In this document: positions 1 through 52,000 of the stretch, piece by piece | Position numbering within the stretch: the stretch's first letter is position 1 | Layout: every line of letters begins with the position of its first letter | Assembly: GCF_037975245.1 (NCBI RefSeq) | Contig: NC_092563.1 | Span: forward strand, 23,776,960-23,840,959 | Length of the DNA: 64,000 bases | DNA from: Apostichopus japonicus | Lineage: Eukaryota; Echinodermata; Holothuroidea; Aspidochirotida; Stichopodidae | Direction of reading: 5' to 3' | Notes under the pieces: generated by a model | The model's input: the letters and a program-made list of their open reading frames with translations, nothing else | Told to the model about the DNA's origin: nothing | Databases searched by the model: none | Position numbers and translations under genes: made by a program

Positions 1-286
1 AATGCTGTCCTGTCTTGTAATACCCCCCCTGTTCAGAAGTACTGCCACTCCTAACCACTAAGATACATTACTGACGTTTTTAGGCATGTGCTATCCGATT
101 AATGGGTCGCGACCCAAGAGTGGGTCACCAGACTGTTATGGGTATCACCAGCCGGGAGGCAGGCAGCAAAAAAAGCAATTGAGCAGCAAATAAAGTTTGG
201 AATGGAAACCTGAAAGTTAACTTCATCCCTGCTATGCAGTGATTTGCTTCACAAATTTGTTTGCTTTCAAAGCTTTGCAGTCAATG

Positions 287-562
287 TGGAGTATATATTG
301 AGTGATTTGTAGGCCTTAGGAATTGAGGGGCCCACCTCTAGCATACACAGAACATGTTGTCAAGGAAAAGGCTTGGAAAGCAGAGTTTTACGTTATCGTG
401 ATGATTTTTGGTGGTTTGCAAAGTTGAGTATGTATTGGGTGATTTGTAGGCCTTAGGAATTGATGGACCCACCTCTAGCAAACACAGAACGTGTTGCCAA
501 CGAAAAGGTTTGGGAAGCAGAGTTTTACGCCATCGTGATAATATTTGGTGGTTTGCAAAGTG
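287..562. repeat. Two-copy tandem duplication, period 137 bp
   Basis: Two adjacent copies (about 287-424 and 424-562) share landmarks such as gtgatttgtaggcctta, gcagagttttacg and tttggtggtttgcaaag, with scattered substitutions. The second copy ends about 45 bp short of CNOT10 exon 12, so the duplication lies in the next intron of that gene. I see no coding potential in it. Confidence 0.85.
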
Positions 563-606: not shown

Positions 607-3600
607 CTTCATTATGCATTTGCGAGCCTTGTCCCATTCGCCACATAAAGCTAGAGAACTGGCCAGATTAATCAAAACTGTTGCCTTGGCAGATTCAGAA
701 GTAGAAGGGTGACTTTGTCTGACCCTTGACCCATGCACTTCCTGAGAGTCGGTCCCATCTCCACTAGCTCCATCACTTTTATCCGACCTGTCTTTATCTC
801 TCTCTGCAAAGGAGATAAATTGAAAGAAACGTTAATTGGACAGGCTACCATCGGACTCAATGACCCAGTATGGCAGATGAAGATTGGCTCATCAACTTTA
901 TTGAACCAGCCCAGATTAATGCTAGATTTTATCAATTCATTGAAAAAGTCCAGGAGATGACATCATCGAAACAGCACAGTAGAGAATATATAACTCAAAT
1001 TTGTTGAACCAGCCCTGTTTATTTTACCAGATTATCAATTTGATGAACCATTCCAGAGAGATGACATCATGTTATTCAATTCATTGAACCAACACATCGC
1101 AAAATATTAGTTCAAATTTTATTGAACAAACCAGGTTCATCATTATGTCAGGTTATCGATTCGATGAACCAGTCCACAAAGATGACAACATGTCAAATTC
1201 CAAGAGCCAGAAAAGGAGAAATAATTAATTCAATCTAAAACCAGCTCAGTTGATATTGTTAGATTATCAAATATGATGAAACAGTCCAGCAGATGAAATC
1301 TTGTAATTGAATTCACCGAACCATTCCAGCAGAAAACAGTCCTTTTATTTTTTTTTTGAAATTTTTGACCAGCCCAGATATTTTCAGATTATCAGTTAAC
1401 TGCACCAGTCAACGAGAAGACAAAATGTCACTAAATTCACAGCAACTGGTAGCAGAAAACATTAGTTCAAATTTATTGAACCAGCCCTATTAATAATGTA
1501 CGATTACCGATGCATTTAATCACTTGGGGAGATAGCACATTACTTAATAAAATTCATACTTAGTGAGCAACCATACAGGAATAAAGCTGTGATGTAAACA
1601 CCTAATATATACAGCTACAATAATTCAATAGTATTTACATACTTGCTACATGTCATTTTCAAAATTTCCAAGTTTCAACAAGGTCATCCAACAGCCTCAA
1701 AAAAACAATATAGCATAAACAATTCAAACTTCTGTAAGGACACATCTAGACTAAAGAGGTGACATCACCCATATGACTGCATCGGTAAAGTCTAGCCATA
1801 GTTTGTTAGATAGATACCTTGTTCAGGAGAGGCAGGGTAGATAACAGATATGTAGTTTGTTAGATAGATACCTTGTTCAGGAGAGGCAGGGTAGATAATA
1901 GATATGTAGTCTGTTAGATAGATACCTTGTTCAGGAGAGGCAGGGTAGATAACAGATATGTAGTTTGTTAGATAGATACCTTGTTCAGGAGAGGCAGGGT
2001 AGATAACAGATACATAGTCTGTTAGATAGATACCTTGTTCAGGAGAGGCAGGGTAGATAACAGATATGTAGTTTGTTAGATAGATACCTTGTTCAGGAGA
2101 GGCAGGGCATATAACAGATATGTAGTTTGTTAGATAGATACCTTGTTCAGGAGAGGCAGGGTAGATAACAGATACGTAGTCTGTTAGATAGATACCTTGT
2201 TCAGGGGAGGCAGGGTAGATAACAGATACATGGTCTGTTAGATAGATACCTTGCTCAGGAGAGGCAGGGTAGATAACAGATATGTAGTTTGTTAGATAGA
2301 TACCTTGTTCAGGAGAGGCAGGGTAGATAACAGATATGTAGTCTGTTAGATAGATACCTTGTTCAGGAGAGGCAGGGTAGATAACAGATATGTAGTCTGT
2401 TAGATAGATACCTTGTTCAGGAGAGGCAGGGTAGATAACAGATACGTAGTCTGTTAGATAGATACCTTGTTCAGGAGAGGCAGGGTAGATAACAGATATG
2501 TAGTTTGTTAGATAGATACCTTGTTCAGGAGAGGCAGGGCATATAACAGATATGTAGTTTGTTAGATAGATACCTTGTTCAGGAGAGGTAGGGTAGATAA
2601 CAGATACGTAGTCTGTTAGATAGATACCTTGTTCAGGGGAGGCAGGGTAGATAACAGATATGTAGTTTGTTAGATAGATACCTTGTTCAGGAGAGGCAGG
2701 GCATATAACAGATATGTAGTTTGTTAGATAGATACCTTGTTCAGGAGAGGCAGGGTAGATAACAGATATGTAGTTTGTTAGATAGATACCTTGTTCAGGA
2801 GAGGCAGGGTAGATAACAGATATGTAGTTTGTTAGATAGATACCTTGTTCAGGAGAGGCAGGGTAGATAACAGATACATAGTCTGTTAGATAGATACCTT
2901 GTTCAGGAGAGGCAGGGTAGATAACAGATATGTAGTTTGTTAGATAGATACCTTGTTCAGGAGAGGCAGGGCATATAACAGATATGTAGTTTGTTAGATA
3001 GATACCTTGTTCAGGAGAGGCAGGGTAGATAACAGATACGTAGTCTGTTAGATAGCTACCTTGTTCAGGGGAGGCAGGGTAGATAACAGATACATGGTCT
3101 GTTAGATAGATACCTTGCTCAGGAGAGGCAGGGTAGATAACAGATATGTAGTTTGTTAGATAGATACCTTGTTCAAGAGAGGCAGGGTAGATAACAGATA
3201 TGTAGTCTGTTAGATAGATACCTTGTTCAGGAGAGGCAGGGTAGATAACAGATATGTAGTCTGTTAGATAGATACCTTGTTCAGGAGAGGCAGGGTAGAT
3301 AACAGATACATAGTCTGTTAGATAGATACCTTGTTCAGGAGAGGCAGGGTAGATAACAGATATGTAGTTTGTTAGATAGATACCTTGTTCAGGAGAGGCA
3401 GGGCATATAACAGATATGTAGTTTGTTAGATAGATACCTTGTTCAGGAGAGGCAGGGTAGATAACAGATACGTAGTCTGTTAGATAGATACCTTGTTCAG
3501 GGGAGGCAGGGTAGATAACAGATATGTAGTTTGTTAGATAGATACCTTGTTCAGGAGAGGCAGGGTAGATAACAGATATGTAGTTTGTTAGATAGATACC

Positions 3601-6600
3601 TTGTTCAGGAGAGGCAGGGTAGATAACAGATACGTAGTCTGTTAGATAGATACCTTGTTCAGGGGAGGCAGGGTAGATAACAGATATGTAGTTTGTTAGA
3701 TAGATACCTTGTTCAGGAGAGGCAGGGCATATAACAGATATGTAGTTTGTTAGATAGATACCTTGTTCAGGAGAGGCAGGGTAGATAACAGATATGTAGT
3801 TTGTTAGATAGATACCTTGTTCAGGAGAGGCAGGGTAGATAACAGATATGTAGTTTGTTAGATAGATACCTTGTTCAGGAGAGGCAGGGTAGATAACAGA
3901 TACATAGTCTGTTAGATAGATACCTTGTTCAGGAGAGGCAGGGTAGATAACAGATATGTAGTTTGTTAGATAGATACCTTGTTCAGGAGAGGCAGGGCAT
4001 ATAACAGATATGTAGTTTGTTAGATAGATACCTTGTTCAGGAGAGGCAGGGTAGATAACAGATACGTAGTCTGTTAGATAGATACCTTGTTCAGGGGAGG
4101 CAGGGTAGATAACAGATACATGGTCTGTTAGATAGATACCTTGCTCAGGAGAGGCAGGGTAGATAACAGATATGTAGTTTGTTAGATAGATACCTTGTTC
4201 AAGAGAGGCAGGGTAGATAACAGATATGTAGTCTGTTAGATAGATACCTTGTTCAGGAGAGGCAGGGTAGATAACAGATATGTAGTCTGTTAGATAGATA
4301 CCTTGTTCAGGAGAGGCAGGGTAGATAACAGATACATAGTCTGTTAGATAGATACCTTGTTCAGGAGAGGCAGGGTAGATAACAGATATGTAGTTTGTTA
4401 GATAGATACCTTGTTCAGGAGAGGCAGGGCATATAACAGATATGTAGTTTGTTAGATAGATACCTTGTTCAGGAGAGGCAGGGTAGATAACAGATACGTA
4501 GTCTGTTAGATAGATACCTTGTTCAGGGGAGGCAGGGTAGATAACAGATATGTAGTTTGTTAGATAGATACCTTGTTCAGGAGAGGCAGGGCATATAACA
4601 GATATGTAGTTTGTTAGATAGATACCTTGTTCAGGAGAGGCAGGGTAGATAACAGATATGTAGTTTGTTAGATAGATACCTTGTTCAGGAGAGGCAGGGT
4701 AGATAACAGATATGTAGTTTGTTAGATAGATACCTTGTTCAGGAGAGGCAGGGTAGATAACAGATATGTAGTCTGTTAGATAGATACCTTGTTCAGGAGA
4801 GGCAGGGTAGATAACAGATATGTAGTTTGTTAGATAGATACCTTGTTCAGGAGAGGCAGGGCATATAACAGATATGTAGTCTGTTAGATAGATACCTTGT
4901 TCAGGAGAGGCAGGGTAGATAACAGATACATCATGAGCATTATCAGCAGACAGATGTTGAAGAGCATCGGTAATTCTATTGAGGTGAACCAGTGCCTCTG
5001 CTGCATATAAATGACCAAGGAATCTGAAAGAAAAATGCAAAATAGCAATCCATTTGATAAATTTAGCAGATTAAAACTACAGTCCTCCTGTGTCTGTCTC
5101 TAATCCTGGTATCAAGTTGGCTTAAAATGGCCATCTTTTGTTTCTAACCCTATCTGCTACACTACTAAGGGATCATATTAACATATATACTCACTTTAGT
5201 GATCCAGCTAAGCCTGGTATGGCCAGCAGATCCTTGGCATGCTGAAGAGCGACCACATTATCCCCCAAGACTAACGAGACGTACGAACTGCAGGCCAGCA
5301 CAGAACATCTCAGATTCAGAATTTCATGTGCCTTCAGAGGAGGACCAGGAGGTGCCCCTGAGGTACCCATCAATGGGGTGGTGGTCTTAGCTCCAGTGCT
5401 TGTTGAACTGCAATGTAAAAGGAAAAGTCCAGATTAAAAGAAATGCAAATGGAATTTTTGGCTTCTTCCTTCTGAGACGGTGATTCTCCAAGCAGTGTAA
5501 AGTTTGCCAATCTGATTAAATCATCATAATCATTATCATAGAAAATAAATTGAAAAGGCCTTCACAGGTACTGTGTAGCATATCTGCTTTTAACCTAATG
5601 TTGTATACCCTTCTAATGATATCATAACAGAGTTTTGTCTTTCATTGCTACTCGACAAGTTAGTATCAAAGTAGGAAGTCGTTAATAAAATCGGCATCCA
5701 GGCTTCAAATATTTTAGGAAAATTCTGGTACAGACACTGTATCACTTACCGGAAGGTCCCAAGAACAACAAGAAACATGAAATCCACATGGTAACTTAAT
5801 CGCAATATTTTGTCCCAAACTACAGAACTAAAGTTGTATGAAGGTAATTACTAATTAAACTACTTAGGTACAGCTGTCTCCATTTCCAAGAAAAAAAAGA
5901 TCACAGTGAATCATCTGTGATGCCACCATGGCAGATACAATTCTATTTTACAACTTTGTGAATGGATTCACTTTAAATTGTGACACAGTTTTAATGTTTG
6001 CTCAGCCGTAAATGTACTCAGAGTTCAAAAATTTCATGTATATGTTTGTTAAGAATGATACCATTTAATACGTAAATTAATGATTACACCAAAACAAAGA
6101 AAAAACAGAGACAATTGTCAGCTCAATTGCCTTTATGATGTCATAAGTTCTATTGCTACCAGCAAAGCTCATAAAATCTCACATTAAACATCATATCTCT
6201 GGGCTAAATATATCATCAGGATGTGGTTTTCACTCACTGGTTGGTGACAAACTTGATCAAACTTGGCAGCATATTTTCTAAAAATATCAGTTTCCATATT
6301 CAAACAACTCTTTCAAAAGGTCAATACACACATAGCATTGTAACTAAACATGACTTAAAAGATATACAGATATGTTTCATCAGCAGTATATCTATTTTAT
6401 GTGGAATTTATATTCTAAATCAATATCAATATCTACATCCACACCAGTATAAATTTTTATCAGTATCAATATCTATATCTACATCAGTATCAATATCAAT
6501 ATCTACATCAGTATCAATATCTTCATCAGTATCAATGTCTACATCTACTACATTAGTATCAATATCATCATCAGTATCAATATCAATATCTTCATCAGTA

Positions 6601-18406: not shown

Positions 18407-19343
18407 TCAACGTGGTGGTGCTATGTAAACCGGAAGCATCTTGCACATGAATGGTAACACGAGGGTGCAGCGTCCATCGTCCCAACTGCCTCCCATGAAA
18501 GTTCCACTGTCGGCGTCGCTCAATGCCACACAATTCTGGTGGCCTCCTTTGTTGTTTGGTTGTTGAATCTTCCACCTGAAGTAATCGTAGGTGGTTCGAT
18601 CAGACCAGACAAAGTCGCCCTCTTTTCTCACGTCGTTTAAACCTATCCAGCAATTCTGAATTAAGAGAATCAACAATGAATAATCTTATATATATATACA
18701 AATAATAATCACCTTTTTCAAACATCATTTACTCATAGCAATTGTTTACTTCTTATATTTACTACATTTTGTGTTAAATTTTATTACAATTGGTGAAAAC
18801 ATATCCAACCTTTATAATAAGAAAAGTCCAGGTTCACATGTATTGTCTGTTAGTATTGAGTTCATTAAAATCATTCAGTTCATTAAAATCATTCATTAAA
18901 AATCCTTGAAGGTATGCAAATTAGATATACCAATATGTTAAGCTTAATTAGAAAAATTATCAGTGGCGTGCGCAAGTTAGGAGGAGGAGGAGGAAGTCGG
19001 CTCCAACGACCCCAGTCTTTTTCCATGTTGTCTTTATTTATAAAATGTGTCATTTTCTGATTTGAGCTGGCATAGCAAATGTTGAACCTAATATTTACAC
19101 TGTATAACATGGCCTAACCAATGTGGATTTGCAGTAGTCAACACAGCAAATATTCCATATTTTCAAAATATGTAAAGAAAAGCAAAGGGAAAGGAAAAAT
19201 CCCAAAACCAGAACATGGTTTTTCGTAGCTATAAGTTGTTCCTTATACAAAGATCTCCGTCATTATGAGCTAAAGAAGATACTCATGTCTGCGTCTTATT
19301 TTAATGCCCGTATAATTTTCGCCGCTTAAGATAGTATTATATG

Positions 19344-19441
<98 letters not shown>

Positions 19442-21184
19442 TAATATATACGATAATTCACAAAAGGCAAAAACCCACATCTGAGACTTTCAAAATTGTA
19501 TTCTAAATCGCGCATTGAGGCGCAGATTATTGTGACACATAATGTGTACTTAACCACTAGGCTGTAGTATATAAAGACACAGGGTATACTTTACCCTGCG
19601 GTGACCATGGATGGTTTCAGAAACTCCTTCCCACAGTGATCGAACAAACATGTTTTCAAGTTCTGAATGAATCGAAACCAGATGAGCAAGCTGGTCTTCA
19701 GCTCCTTCGTAAATCGTCCCGAACTGGTTACAAAACCTCTCTGCGTCAAACCATTCCATCTGATGATTGCTGAAAAACCTAAATAGTATAATTAAAAAAA
19801 AAGTCAAAAGATGTGACTTTGGTGTAGTTTTATGAATTTCAAGAGTGGATAGGCAGGCTAGCAGATAGATATTCATGGATTGACGGGGCACTGATGGACG
19901 AATGATGGATGGGAGGGAGGGTGGATGGATGGACAGATGGATGGGTAGGCGGATGGACGTTTGGGTATATGGACAGGTGGGTGGATGGATGAATTGATGG
20001 ATGGCTGTATTTGTGGATGGGTACTGGGTAGGTAGAGGTAGCGGTGCAATACTTGCTAGCAATAATGACTGAGTCATTAATATTGTAGGCCAAAAGATAT
20101 TCACTTGAGATAACCAACCGTTTCACTATAATTTTGATTTCAATATATTGTCCACATAATTATTTGTGAAAAGAATTTCTGATCATTTATGCTGACGGAG
20201 GAGACAAATTCCCATTTAGCAGATAGGGTCACCGAGCTATTAGAAAACGTAAGAAAAACCTTACAAAAGTTCCTCCTTTCTTATTAGTTTGAAGGTCAAT
20301 GTGTAGTTTTGACTAGGTCAAATTGTGATTGAACCAGTCGTCCGGGTCTTAAATCGTTTGAACGAAATGAGCCATACGTTCTTCGCAGTGGCGTAGGAAG
20401 GTACTTTTGAGTGGGGGGGGGGGGGGCTGAAGACTGATGGCCGGCCTGGGGGAGGGGTTTAAGGGGAGGGGGAGGGTGTCCCCCTCCCCTTTGGAAATTT
20501 TTTGTTTTTCCAGGTGGCCTCAGATGCAATTTGGTGCAATATAGCACACTTCAACCCACCCACTCCATTTTGTATATAATTTTGCATTTTCACCTGGCCT
20601 TAGATGCAATTTGGTGCTCCAAATGAGATTTTTTTCTCATTTGGAAATGAAAAAGGGGTTTTCTGACTTGCGAAGCGGGGGGGGGGGGGGCGGAATGATA
20701 CTTCCGCCCCTCCACATTTTTCACTGGGGGGCTGGCGCCCCCCCCCCCAGCCCCCCGGTTCCTACGCCCTTGGTTCTTCGAATATTTGTTCATGAAGGTC
20801 TACGGAACGAAGGTTTACGCGTTTAGTTGTAAGGCAACATGCTACTGGACGTACGTATACGCTATGCCTATAGAGTTAAGAGCTATACGATGATAGGTAT
20901 AGGCTATGATAAATATAAAGGATCCCATCGGTAGGCTAAGGGAAAACATATGTAGGTGTAACTTAGCACCCTGTAGACTGGTTGCCCCCTGTATGCTTCA
21001 GTACACACTAAGTGTAACTTTTAAACATTAATCCAATGATCTACCTGTAACAATGACTGCCCCAAAAAGTCCATCCAGGGACACATCTCGAGGATAAACT
21101 CCCCTCGTTTGATAATGGTATCGCCTTGATAAGACCGTTGAGATATAAACACGTGATGGCCAACCACCACCGTTTCATTCTCAT
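18407..21184 (-). CDS. Secreted single-domain C-type lectin
   Basis: Three coding exons: 21045-21184, 19595-19778, 18407-18655 (phases 2 and 0), giving about 190 residues. Residues 1-21 form a signal peptide (basic start, then WWLAITCLYLNGLIKA). The rest is one C-type lectin domain: RCVPGWTFWGSHCY, then RFFSNHQMEWFDAERFC, HLVSIHSELENMFVRSL, NCWIGLNDVRKEGDFVWSD, QPNN and GSWDDGRC. Six cysteines fit the canonical pairs 34-45, 63-179 and 150-171; C110 is extra. The sugar/calcium site reads Q140-P-N with W166-D-D, between mannose-type EPN and galactose-type QPD, so specificity cannot be assigned. An acceptor nine bases before the first ATG implies a 5' UTR exon upstream. Probably extracellular recognition or humoral immunity, by analogy with echinoderm lectins. 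Intron 1 holds a hAT-like MITE, intron 2 a long (TA)n tract. Confidence 0.92.
19340..19438. repeat. (TA)n microsatellite, ~100 bp
   Basis: Nearly pure AT dinucleotides with a few TG interruptions at the left end, in intron 2 of the lectin gene. Confidence 0.95.
19850..20025. repeat. Degenerate (GGAT)n simple repeat
   Basis: ggatggatggacagatggat-type tetranucleotides with many substitutions, in intron 1 of the lectin gene. They create spurious minus-strand open frames rich in HPS/THP. Confidence 0.85.
20386..20772. mobile_element. hAT-like MITE with G-rich ends and perfect 8-bp TSD
   Basis: The left end cagtggcgtaggaaggta pairs with the right end, whose reverse complement is caagggcgtaggaaccgg. 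The element is flanked by identical 8-bp copies of gttcttcg at 20378-20385 and 20773-20780, the target-duplication length expected of hAT transposons. Runs of 10-12 G and C sit just inside each end. There is no transposase. It lies in intron 1 of the lectin gene. Confidence 0.88.
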
Positions 21185-40701: not shown

Positions 40702-49087
<8,386 letters not shown>

Positions 49088-52000
49088 ATGTCTATGGCTG
49101 ATTCTGACTTTGAAACGACTTCATCGAATGCATCCCTGGTCCATGCTACCCCTCATCATGACAGAGGTAGAGTTCCACCCGGTGGTATAGTATGCCACCC
49201 TCGATGGAAGGGAACAGAGGTTGCTAACACCATGCAAGGTACTACTTCATGCTACAAAGCTTACAAAACAGAAATGTAGTTTATATGCCTCAATCAGGGG
49301 CTTTGAGACTTGAGGAGCCAAGTCAAGCCCCAGGGACATTTAATGCAGAATTACATTATATTTTATCCCTTATTTGACCCAGGGCTATTGCCACCTTAAA
49401 CTTCCCCTAAAAGGGGAAGTTTAAGGTGGCAATATCCCCTCAATTTTACCCTGTGTGGTCTGGAATCTAGAACCATTGACATCTTGATTTCTTTATTTTA
49501 TGAATTATTCATATTGACTCACACATCATGACAAATGTATAACAGGAATGGCTTACTGTTTATCAACTTTGATATTCCTATATAGTTACATAAAATGTCA
49601 TATAGAAAAGCATGTTACTTGTTAATTAGAATGGAAAGAACTGCCACAGTTTTAATTAAATTTCAGATTGTTTCAGAAGCCAACCAAGGGTTTGTACTCT
49701 AGGATGATGTTTTAGTTATTTATGTATTTATATGATATTTTTTTCTTTCTTTCTCTGTTTATGTGTGTACTTGGCCCTACTTCCCTCTTTTTAAAATAGG
49801 TAGGGTAAGAATAGTTTTTGAAGGTGACACCGGAGTTGTAGATTTCCACACAGCACATGACAAGGCAGTGATTTATGTCTCGGAAGCAGATCTGATCAGT
49901 GGTCCAGCATACAGAAAGAAACTTGCTAAACTGAGAAAGGTAAGGATTTTTTAAGTATTAATTTGATCAGTCAGTGCTACTTATTTGCCCAATGGATTAT
50001 CAAGGTTCATATACCACAGTAAATTACTGTAGGTTTCTTGTGTACATAGACTACTTACAAAGTGGTTTGTTTGGATCATGGCTAAAAGGAGTCATTATAG
50101 CTTTATAAGCAGTAGCTTTAAATGTCCCTGGAAACAGCTTTGTAGCATACTGTTGGACTGCCATTCCTTAATTGTAAATTTCTATACATATCACTCTTAA
50201 AATTGGACCTCTTCTTTCATGTCAGAGATTTGAATTGTTGAAATGACAGAAGAATCTTTCCCTATTAAGTTATATACATCAATTTGGGCAATTTTCTTGC
50301 ATTTTTGGAACAGTTGTTTCAATGATTTTCATAGGCTGTTGTTGCAGTGTTATAAAGTGAGTAAGAGAGTCATTCAGTGAAGTTTGATATTATCAGGCAA
50401 ACCTCTGCTTCATCCCATAGTCTGTTTGCCAATTTTCATGAATTCATCTTTCAATTTTTTTTTCCTCTTCATTTTCATTTTATTTTTCAATTCCTAGATA
50501 CATCTTATTAAGGACAGAAAGACTCTGAACTGTAAAACTCAGCTGCCTGAAATTTCTTTCATTTTCTTCCTATTTTTATTTTTTTATTACATCTTTTATT
50601 TTTACAGGCGAAGAAATTAAAAGGCATCGTATTGGTTGAGAAGACACCAATGACAGAGCAATATTTTCTTGATGTGCAGAAGTTTGTGGTCATAGAATTG
50701 GGGTTTGTTCTTCTTCCAGTCACAAACCAAGTCGAGGCTGGTAACTTGCTTGTGCAAATGGTAGGTAAATTATTTACAAGAAATAAACCACCTGTAACCA
50801 AACTTGTCATCAATGTCACTTCCAAGAACTTAGGGAAGAGAAAAGGTACACAAAAACAACATTTTATCCTGTAACTACCTTTATGTTTGGATTTGTGTTA
50901 TATGAAACAATTGTAATGTATCTGTTACATTACAGACTGATTCTACCTGCAGAGAACTTACAAAGTTATGTCTGATTCTGAACTTTGCGTTTGTTATCAT
51001 TGTTGTTGTATTAAATATTTGATCAATACAGTTTCCGTTGTGGCGATATAAGCAAGCATTGGGGTAACTACAGTTTGGTACTAGTTTACAAGAAGCCTAT
51101 ATGTCTTTAGAATAAAGTTATGACTTACAAAGGGAGCCTATTGATAAGATGATAAAATCAATTTAAAACAAAAGTAGAATTTCTTGAAATATTCCAAGTG
51201 ACAATGTAACATTGTGTAACTTATATCTCTATCCTGTTAATAATAAATTTTGGAAAGGAGTAAAATGAAATTTATGGCTAGAATTGGATTCGAACCAGCG
51301 ACCTCTGGGTTACCAGCCCACCGCTCCACCAACTGAGCTATCCAGCCCTTAGTTGTTGACATTCCCTATACAACCAATTCTTTGCTGTGGGGCGCTAGTA
51401 AGAGTCCACAGTAACCACGGACCACTCTCCAGTATCATTCAATACAACCCAGAAAGTGATGTCATGAGAGCTTTGGGTGTTTTATATATACTTATATAAT
51501 TATTCCATTACTGAATAATAATAAATTTGTATAAAATCTATCATTCTCATTCTAATTGATACAGGTTAATGAAGAGAACAAACCCAATGGCAATCCATTC
51601 ATAGCTAAAGTAAAGCGAGGCATCTCCCAGGACCAAGCTGTCCTCAGTACTGTACAGATGATACCGAAGCTAGGATCCGTTAAAGCCAAGGCCTTGCTCT
51701 GCAGATTCAAGAGCATCCATGGGATACAAGCCGCAACGATGCACGTAAGAGTTTGACTTCTGCAATGTTCCTCTTTCTCCTCCATAAGTAAAGTAACTTT
51801 AAGACTTTGTTGGGCAGTTCTTAATTCAAAATCTTCAGAATTCATAGTACCTGGACCAATTAAAGCAACAATGTATATGAGTAGTGAAGGGAAGATGCTA
51901 CTTGACAAGGAATTGCTCTTTAACAGGCAACTGTTATTTGACAGGAAGGTGCTATTTGCCTTCTGACAAGAGCAGTTCCCTGATCACAGGGGTTTTAGGT

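Follow-up and report, generated by a model that had tools for sequence, protein, structure and literature searches.

A 54-bp minisatellite repeats the CNOT10 exon 11 splice donor in 58 units in Apostichopus japonicus

In Apostichopus japonicus, exon 11 of CNOT10 ends at a 5′ splice site that lies inside a minisatellite and recurs in every unit, which raises the question of whether the array tunes splicing, lengthens the protein in a frame-preserving manner, or is a neutral repeat that the gene tolerates. The initial annotation of this locus took the open frame and constant unit length of the array to suggest selection, and proposed a tuned splice-site cluster or a length-variable linker. We analysed the locus within a window, the whole 64,000-nucleotide stretch of DNA under study, situated 23.78 Mb into a contig of 31.4 Mb.

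The gene is on the minus strand. A manual model of twelve coding exons joins them at GT-AG boundaries and keeps the reading frame open; the name exon 11 follows a numbering of coding exons only. Residues 13–658 of the 660-aa model align to residues 3–644 of 8fy4 chain B (from the solved CCR4-NOT subunit 10 chains) with an E value of 1.8e-163, and on this full-length similarity the gene is assigned as the CNOT10 orthologue. Two exons flank the intron that bears the array:

4896..5023, minus strand: CNOT10 coding exon 11, 128 nt, from the hand model and peptide homology
607..803, minus strand: CNOT10 coding exon 12, phase 1, acceptor tttgcag/AGAGAG, from the hand model

The 3′ end of exon 11 falls within array unit 1, at CCT GAA CAA G/gtatct (AACAAG/gtatct), and exon 12 starts in phase 1 with AGAGAGATAAAG; the solved CNOT10 chain reads NEQDQG-SDKGE at the corresponding junction. 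Intron 10 is 171 nt long and intron 11 is 4,092 nt. The intron after exon 12 holds a 137-bp direct repeat (window 282–562; 2.1 copies, 88% matches). A search with the array and three CNOT10 exon pieces found one place in the 671.6-Mb genome, such counts being lower bounds. A processed CNOT10 copy would reveal how exon 11 is spliced; a search of the genome for such a retrocopy with the peptide of exons 10–12 returned at least three places, all within CNOT10 itself.

The array geometry described in the initial annotation (about 58 copies of a 54-bp unit built from ~35 nt of the exon 11 end and ~19 nt of the intron start, with the donor repeated in each) is confirmed by two methods. Tandem Repeats Finder (TRF) returned a period of 54, 58.0 copies, 95% matches and 0% indels over 1799–4928, and an anchor scan placed 58 donor anchors at a spacing of exactly 54 in 57 of 57 intervals. 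For the limits given below, each unit was cut to hold 35 nt on the exon side of the donor and 19 nt on its intron side; as an ATG is common to both unit edges, their placement can shift by 3 nt.

1799..4930, minus strand: minisatellite of 58 units of 54 bp, each with 35 nt exon-like and 19 nt intron-like sequence and a GT donor
4890..4895, minus strand: donor 1, GTATCT, the expected main exon 11 5′ splice site, from the anchor scan and gene model; score 5.47
4836..4841, minus strand: donor 2, the likeliest leak site, whose putative use would add 18 residues and give an exon of 182 nt
1812..1817, minus strand: donor 58, intron-proximal, in phase with exon 12, from the anchor scan and junction read-through
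1792..1794, minus strand: TAG stop at which the array frame would end on intron retention, from the open reading frame scan

A GT stands at the donor position of all 58 units, in the context AAG/GTATCT in 57 of them and AAG/GTAGCT in unit 35. The units fall into 14 types that differ at 12 columns. The frame of the exon stays open through every unit, each unit encoding 18 residues without a stop in any of the 58, while the other two frames meet a stop in each unit. If the intron were retained, an open reading frame of 1,092 codons (1792–5070) would run through the array, matching the 1000+ codons to a stop at 1792 that had been claimed. The outermost donor was likewise correctly placed in phase 1 with exon 12, for the join from donor 58 reads through 1,134 residues without a stop; the join from donor 1 also preserves the frame. 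The statement that later donors would lengthen the protein in frame, in multiples of 18 residues, is right as geometry.

The order of the unit types records how the array grew. Written as one letter per unit, it reads FBACCCBEDBAFAIGJDBAHCCBEDCEDBAFAIGKDBAHCCBELBAMACGJDBAHANC, and a comparison at a lag of 19 units revealed a block of 18 units present twice:

3533..4552, minus strand: 18-unit block, upstream copy (units 8–25); edges approximate
2555..3526, minus strand: 18-unit block, downstream copy (units 27–44)

The two copies differ by 2 substitutions in 972 bp. Identity between unit pairs was highest, at 65%, for a lag of 35; when the unit order was shuffled 5000 times, no shuffle came up to this value at any lag from 5 to 40. 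Because units 8–25 recur as units 27–44 and the lag identity exceeds the shuffles, the array spread recently by blocks: it is young and has grown by recent copying of several units at a time. Recent homogenisation, which the initial annotation had offered as the alternative to selection, explains these data. It also follows from block copying that the 58 units are far from independent. The array is bounded by GATG/TATC on one side and CTATG/GCTA on the other, and as both edges share an ATG, the first duplication may have used this triplet.

The 12 variable columns were therefore taken as the nearest approach to independent events in asking whether the frame is under selection. Ten of the 12 changes are transitions. 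Four are synonymous, against 3.0–3.6 expected for transition weights of 1–4, and the changes fall 5, 3 and 4 times at codon positions 1, 2 and 3; codon-level constraint, sought in these 12 columns as an excess of synonymous or third-position changes, was not seen in a test of low power. The probability that 12 random changes create no stop is 0.55–0.66. The 12 substitutions are neutral-looking, and neither the absence of stops nor the type of change indicates coding use. The initial inference of selection from an open frame and constant length is not supported by this comparison, given that all variation lies in 12 columns and that the array spread recently by blocks.

Constant unit length was considered separately, against other minisatellites as the initial annotation had suggested. 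The control drew on 210 kb of the contig plus the window and yielded 24 TRF rows, one of which is the CNOT10 array. Twelve of the other 23 were realigned as control arrays. The remaining 11 were left out, of which 2 were degenerate rows in the window, 1 repeated an array already used, and 8 were mostly more diverged, with 6–26% indels by TRF; adding the diverged rows would probably raise the expected number of indels. TRF at first suggested 0% indels for several neighbouring arrays as well, but realignment contradicted this, with at least one indel in 9 of the 12 controls and none in 3. Pooled, the 12 arrays hold 83 distinct substitutions; their indel events number 20, or 14 when those near each other are merged by hand. 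Scaled to 12 substitutions, this small control, picked post hoc and partly counted by hand, predicts 2.9 or 2.0 indels against 0 in the CNOT10 array (P 0.055 or 0.132). The 5 youngest controls (chosen for having at least 5 copies and either a TRF match of at least 95% or comparable youth, and including one array at 90–95% matches depending on the period) predict 4.0 or 2.7 (P 0.018 or 0.069). The shortage of indels is mildly unusual and leaves room for selection on the frame; it leans the way of the initial annotation, at P values spanning 0.018–0.132 in a 12-array post hoc control. As proof of selection, constant length was rejected on these P values and on a counter-example: the units of the human CBS repeat are invariably 31 bp, so that constant length needs no frame constraint.

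The same contig carries other long minisatellites, of 62 bp × 17 (L013, 800–1850) and 40 bp × 13 (L014, 3729–4244), from which we consider such arrays common in this genome. Within the window, a 42-bp tandem repeat (46883–47018; 3.2 copies, 85% matches) likewise has a unit length divisible by 3.

Which of the 58 donors would be used can be anticipated from donor strength and exon architecture. The exon 11 donor, at 5.47, scores second lowest of the 12 modelled donors with an assumed human frequency table, and ranks fifth weakest by U1 duplex energy with an assumed U1 end. Between exons 11 and 12, one site outside the array outscores its donors, CAAGTATGT at 1642, and it lies past the in-frame stop. 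An exon of less than 250 nt results only from donors 1–3 (128, 182 and 236 nt). With short introns defined as <250 nt, after the rule in PMC9225289, the flanks of exon 11 (171 and 4,092 nt) belong to the short-long class. According to the same study, the upstream of two equal-strength human donors is preferred in 60% of events, a bias heightened in the short-long class, and in five human minigenes carrying a pair of identical strong donors, splicing went exclusively to the upstream donor; when the pair was weak, minigenes with the larger exons showed exon skipping, and across all human events, unmatched for strength, the downstream donor is preferred in ~60% (PMC9225289). Under these human rules, the short-long introns favour donor 1, which we expect to dominate, with a small leak to donors 2–3; exon 11 may at times be skipped as well. 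Given the weak donor and the skipping seen in minigenes, exon 11 skipping or intron retention may exceed clean use of donor 1.

Repeats that cover a donor have counterparts in human genes. The title of Turri et al. 1995 reportedly describes multiple splice donor sites in the minisatellite of IFI6 (6-16, G1P3), and Lievers 2001 is said, by its title, to concern splicing effects of the CBS repeat. IFI6 resembles CNOT10 in that several repeat units offer donors, with a much shorter unit of 12 bp, and because IFI6 is reported to make distinct isoforms, the idea of in-frame isoforms has a precedent. In IFI6, two downstream repeat units act as donors and give three mRNAs (PMC4526556). The closest parallel in structure is the variable-number tandem repeat (VNTR) of ABCA7 intron 18, in which, as in CNOT10, the array adjoins the exon, the first GT is the exon donor and later units offer further donors. 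For ABCA7, the published account gives an array of 25-bp units that opens with the exon 18 donor GT, alleles from 12 units up with 9,711 bp mentioned, use of the second unit's donor (retention of one unit) in 2 ± 1% of transcripts across tissues, exon 19 skipping that rises with array length, and, in brain area BA10, alternative isoforms that combined often exceed the canonical one (PMC5954066). Unlike in CNOT10, the ABCA7 GT is at the very start of the unit and retention of a 25-bp unit shifts the frame. The CBS VNTR (c.1444_1467+7) has 16–21 copies, with units invariably 31 bp that carry single-base differences (PMC2630376). By its name, the CBS unit joins 24 exonic and 7 intronic bases and so spans the exon–intron border as the CNOT10 unit does; 31 is, however, not a multiple of 3, and the copy number is about one third of that in CNOT10. 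Tandem duplications that create introns also cross an exon–intron border and reuse existing splice signals, but consist of a single duplication giving a new intron rather than a long donor array.

In CNOT10, a tandem array of constant units (58 × 54 bp) runs contiguously from inside exon 11, and the exon's own 5′ splice site, as placed by the gene model rather than by RNA, lies within the unit and recurs in later ones. On this gene model the array is of the same kind as those of ABCA7, CBS and IFI6, a minisatellite grown across a donor; it also has the open frame and the unit divisible by 3 of an in-frame coding repeat. It sets itself apart by its unit length (54, in frame), its gene and its animal. 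A literature search on CNOT10 and repeats had CNOT10 in none of the 10 papers listed of 1,416 matches, which is not proof of absence. Repeats of this kind arise outside humans too, and this one provides, in a natural gene, 58 almost identical donors that compete with one another, with one acceptor on either side and all in frame. Every choice of donor would leave a readable, translatable product, making the locus a good substrate for testing exon definition among equal 5′ splice sites.

The array is probably a neutral minisatellite spanning a donor, with transcripts mostly spliced at donor 1 and rare in-frame products longer by 18 or 36 residues. It would have arisen by chance across the exon 11 donor, through a 54-bp tandem duplication between the ATG triplets of its two edges, and expanded recently by copying of multi-unit blocks. 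Most transcripts would come from the spliceosome pairing donor 1 with the acceptor of exon 11 through exon definition, and occasional use of donor 2 or 3 would place the extra residues in the linker. A selected function is unnecessary in this account, the leak being tolerable because the array frame is open, and for CNOT10 biology the array may well be inert. Recursive or internal splicing, in which units would act as acceptor and donor and the array would be removed stepwise or as micro-exons, strikes us as highly improbable: ACAG occupies a candidate acceptor position in 25 of 58 units and a pyrimidine-rich stretch ending in AAG lies ahead of each donor, but a long pyrimidine tract directly before ACAG is absent, and a 54-nt step is close to the usual intron size or smaller.

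It is unlikely that the array acts, as reported for ABCA7 exon 19, as a modulator of splicing. In that reading its length would change skipping of exon 11 or 12, how often the intron is retained or the level of CNOT10, by way of many weak U1 sites or other factors. The weak donor in the CNOT10 array would suit such a role, and so would the correlation of ABCA7 VNTR length with exon 19 skipping and lower expression (PMC5954066); a physiological role would, however, require conservation. We hold it very unlikely that the array is a frame-constrained linker of variable length, in which downstream donors are used meaningfully, units with frameshifts or stops are purged, and CNOT10 gains 0, 18, 36 or more residues. 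The divisibility of 54 by 3, the 58 units without a stop, the phase of donor 58 and the 0 indels against 2.0–2.9 (12 controls) or 2.7–4.0 (5 youngest) predicted from the post hoc set are what such a linker would lead one to expect, yet synonymous and third-position changes are not in excess, an absence of stops is already probable by chance, the predicted repeat peptide is aromatic and hydrophobic whereas the native linker is charged, and CBS keeps its 31-bp units with no benefit to the frame (PMC2630376). Were such a linker real, it would be a donor VNTR with productive rather than frameshifting unit retention. For the initial interpretation as a whole, the geometry and mechanics stand, while the functional inference of a tuned splice cluster or length-variable linker is unsupported.

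Elsewhere in the window, an open reading frame piece at 18407–18685 (minus strand) contains a C-type lectin domain (PF00059, E 1.8e-12), and a second piece at ~19550–19791 resembles it by eye, with no Pfam match. A family 2 glycosyl transferase (PF00535), probably the dolichol-phosphate mannosyltransferase DPM1, is represented on the minus strand by two exon pieces, at 46069–46428 and 44868–45044. A tRNA-Thr gene with anticodon GGT is found at 51275–51347 on the minus strand.
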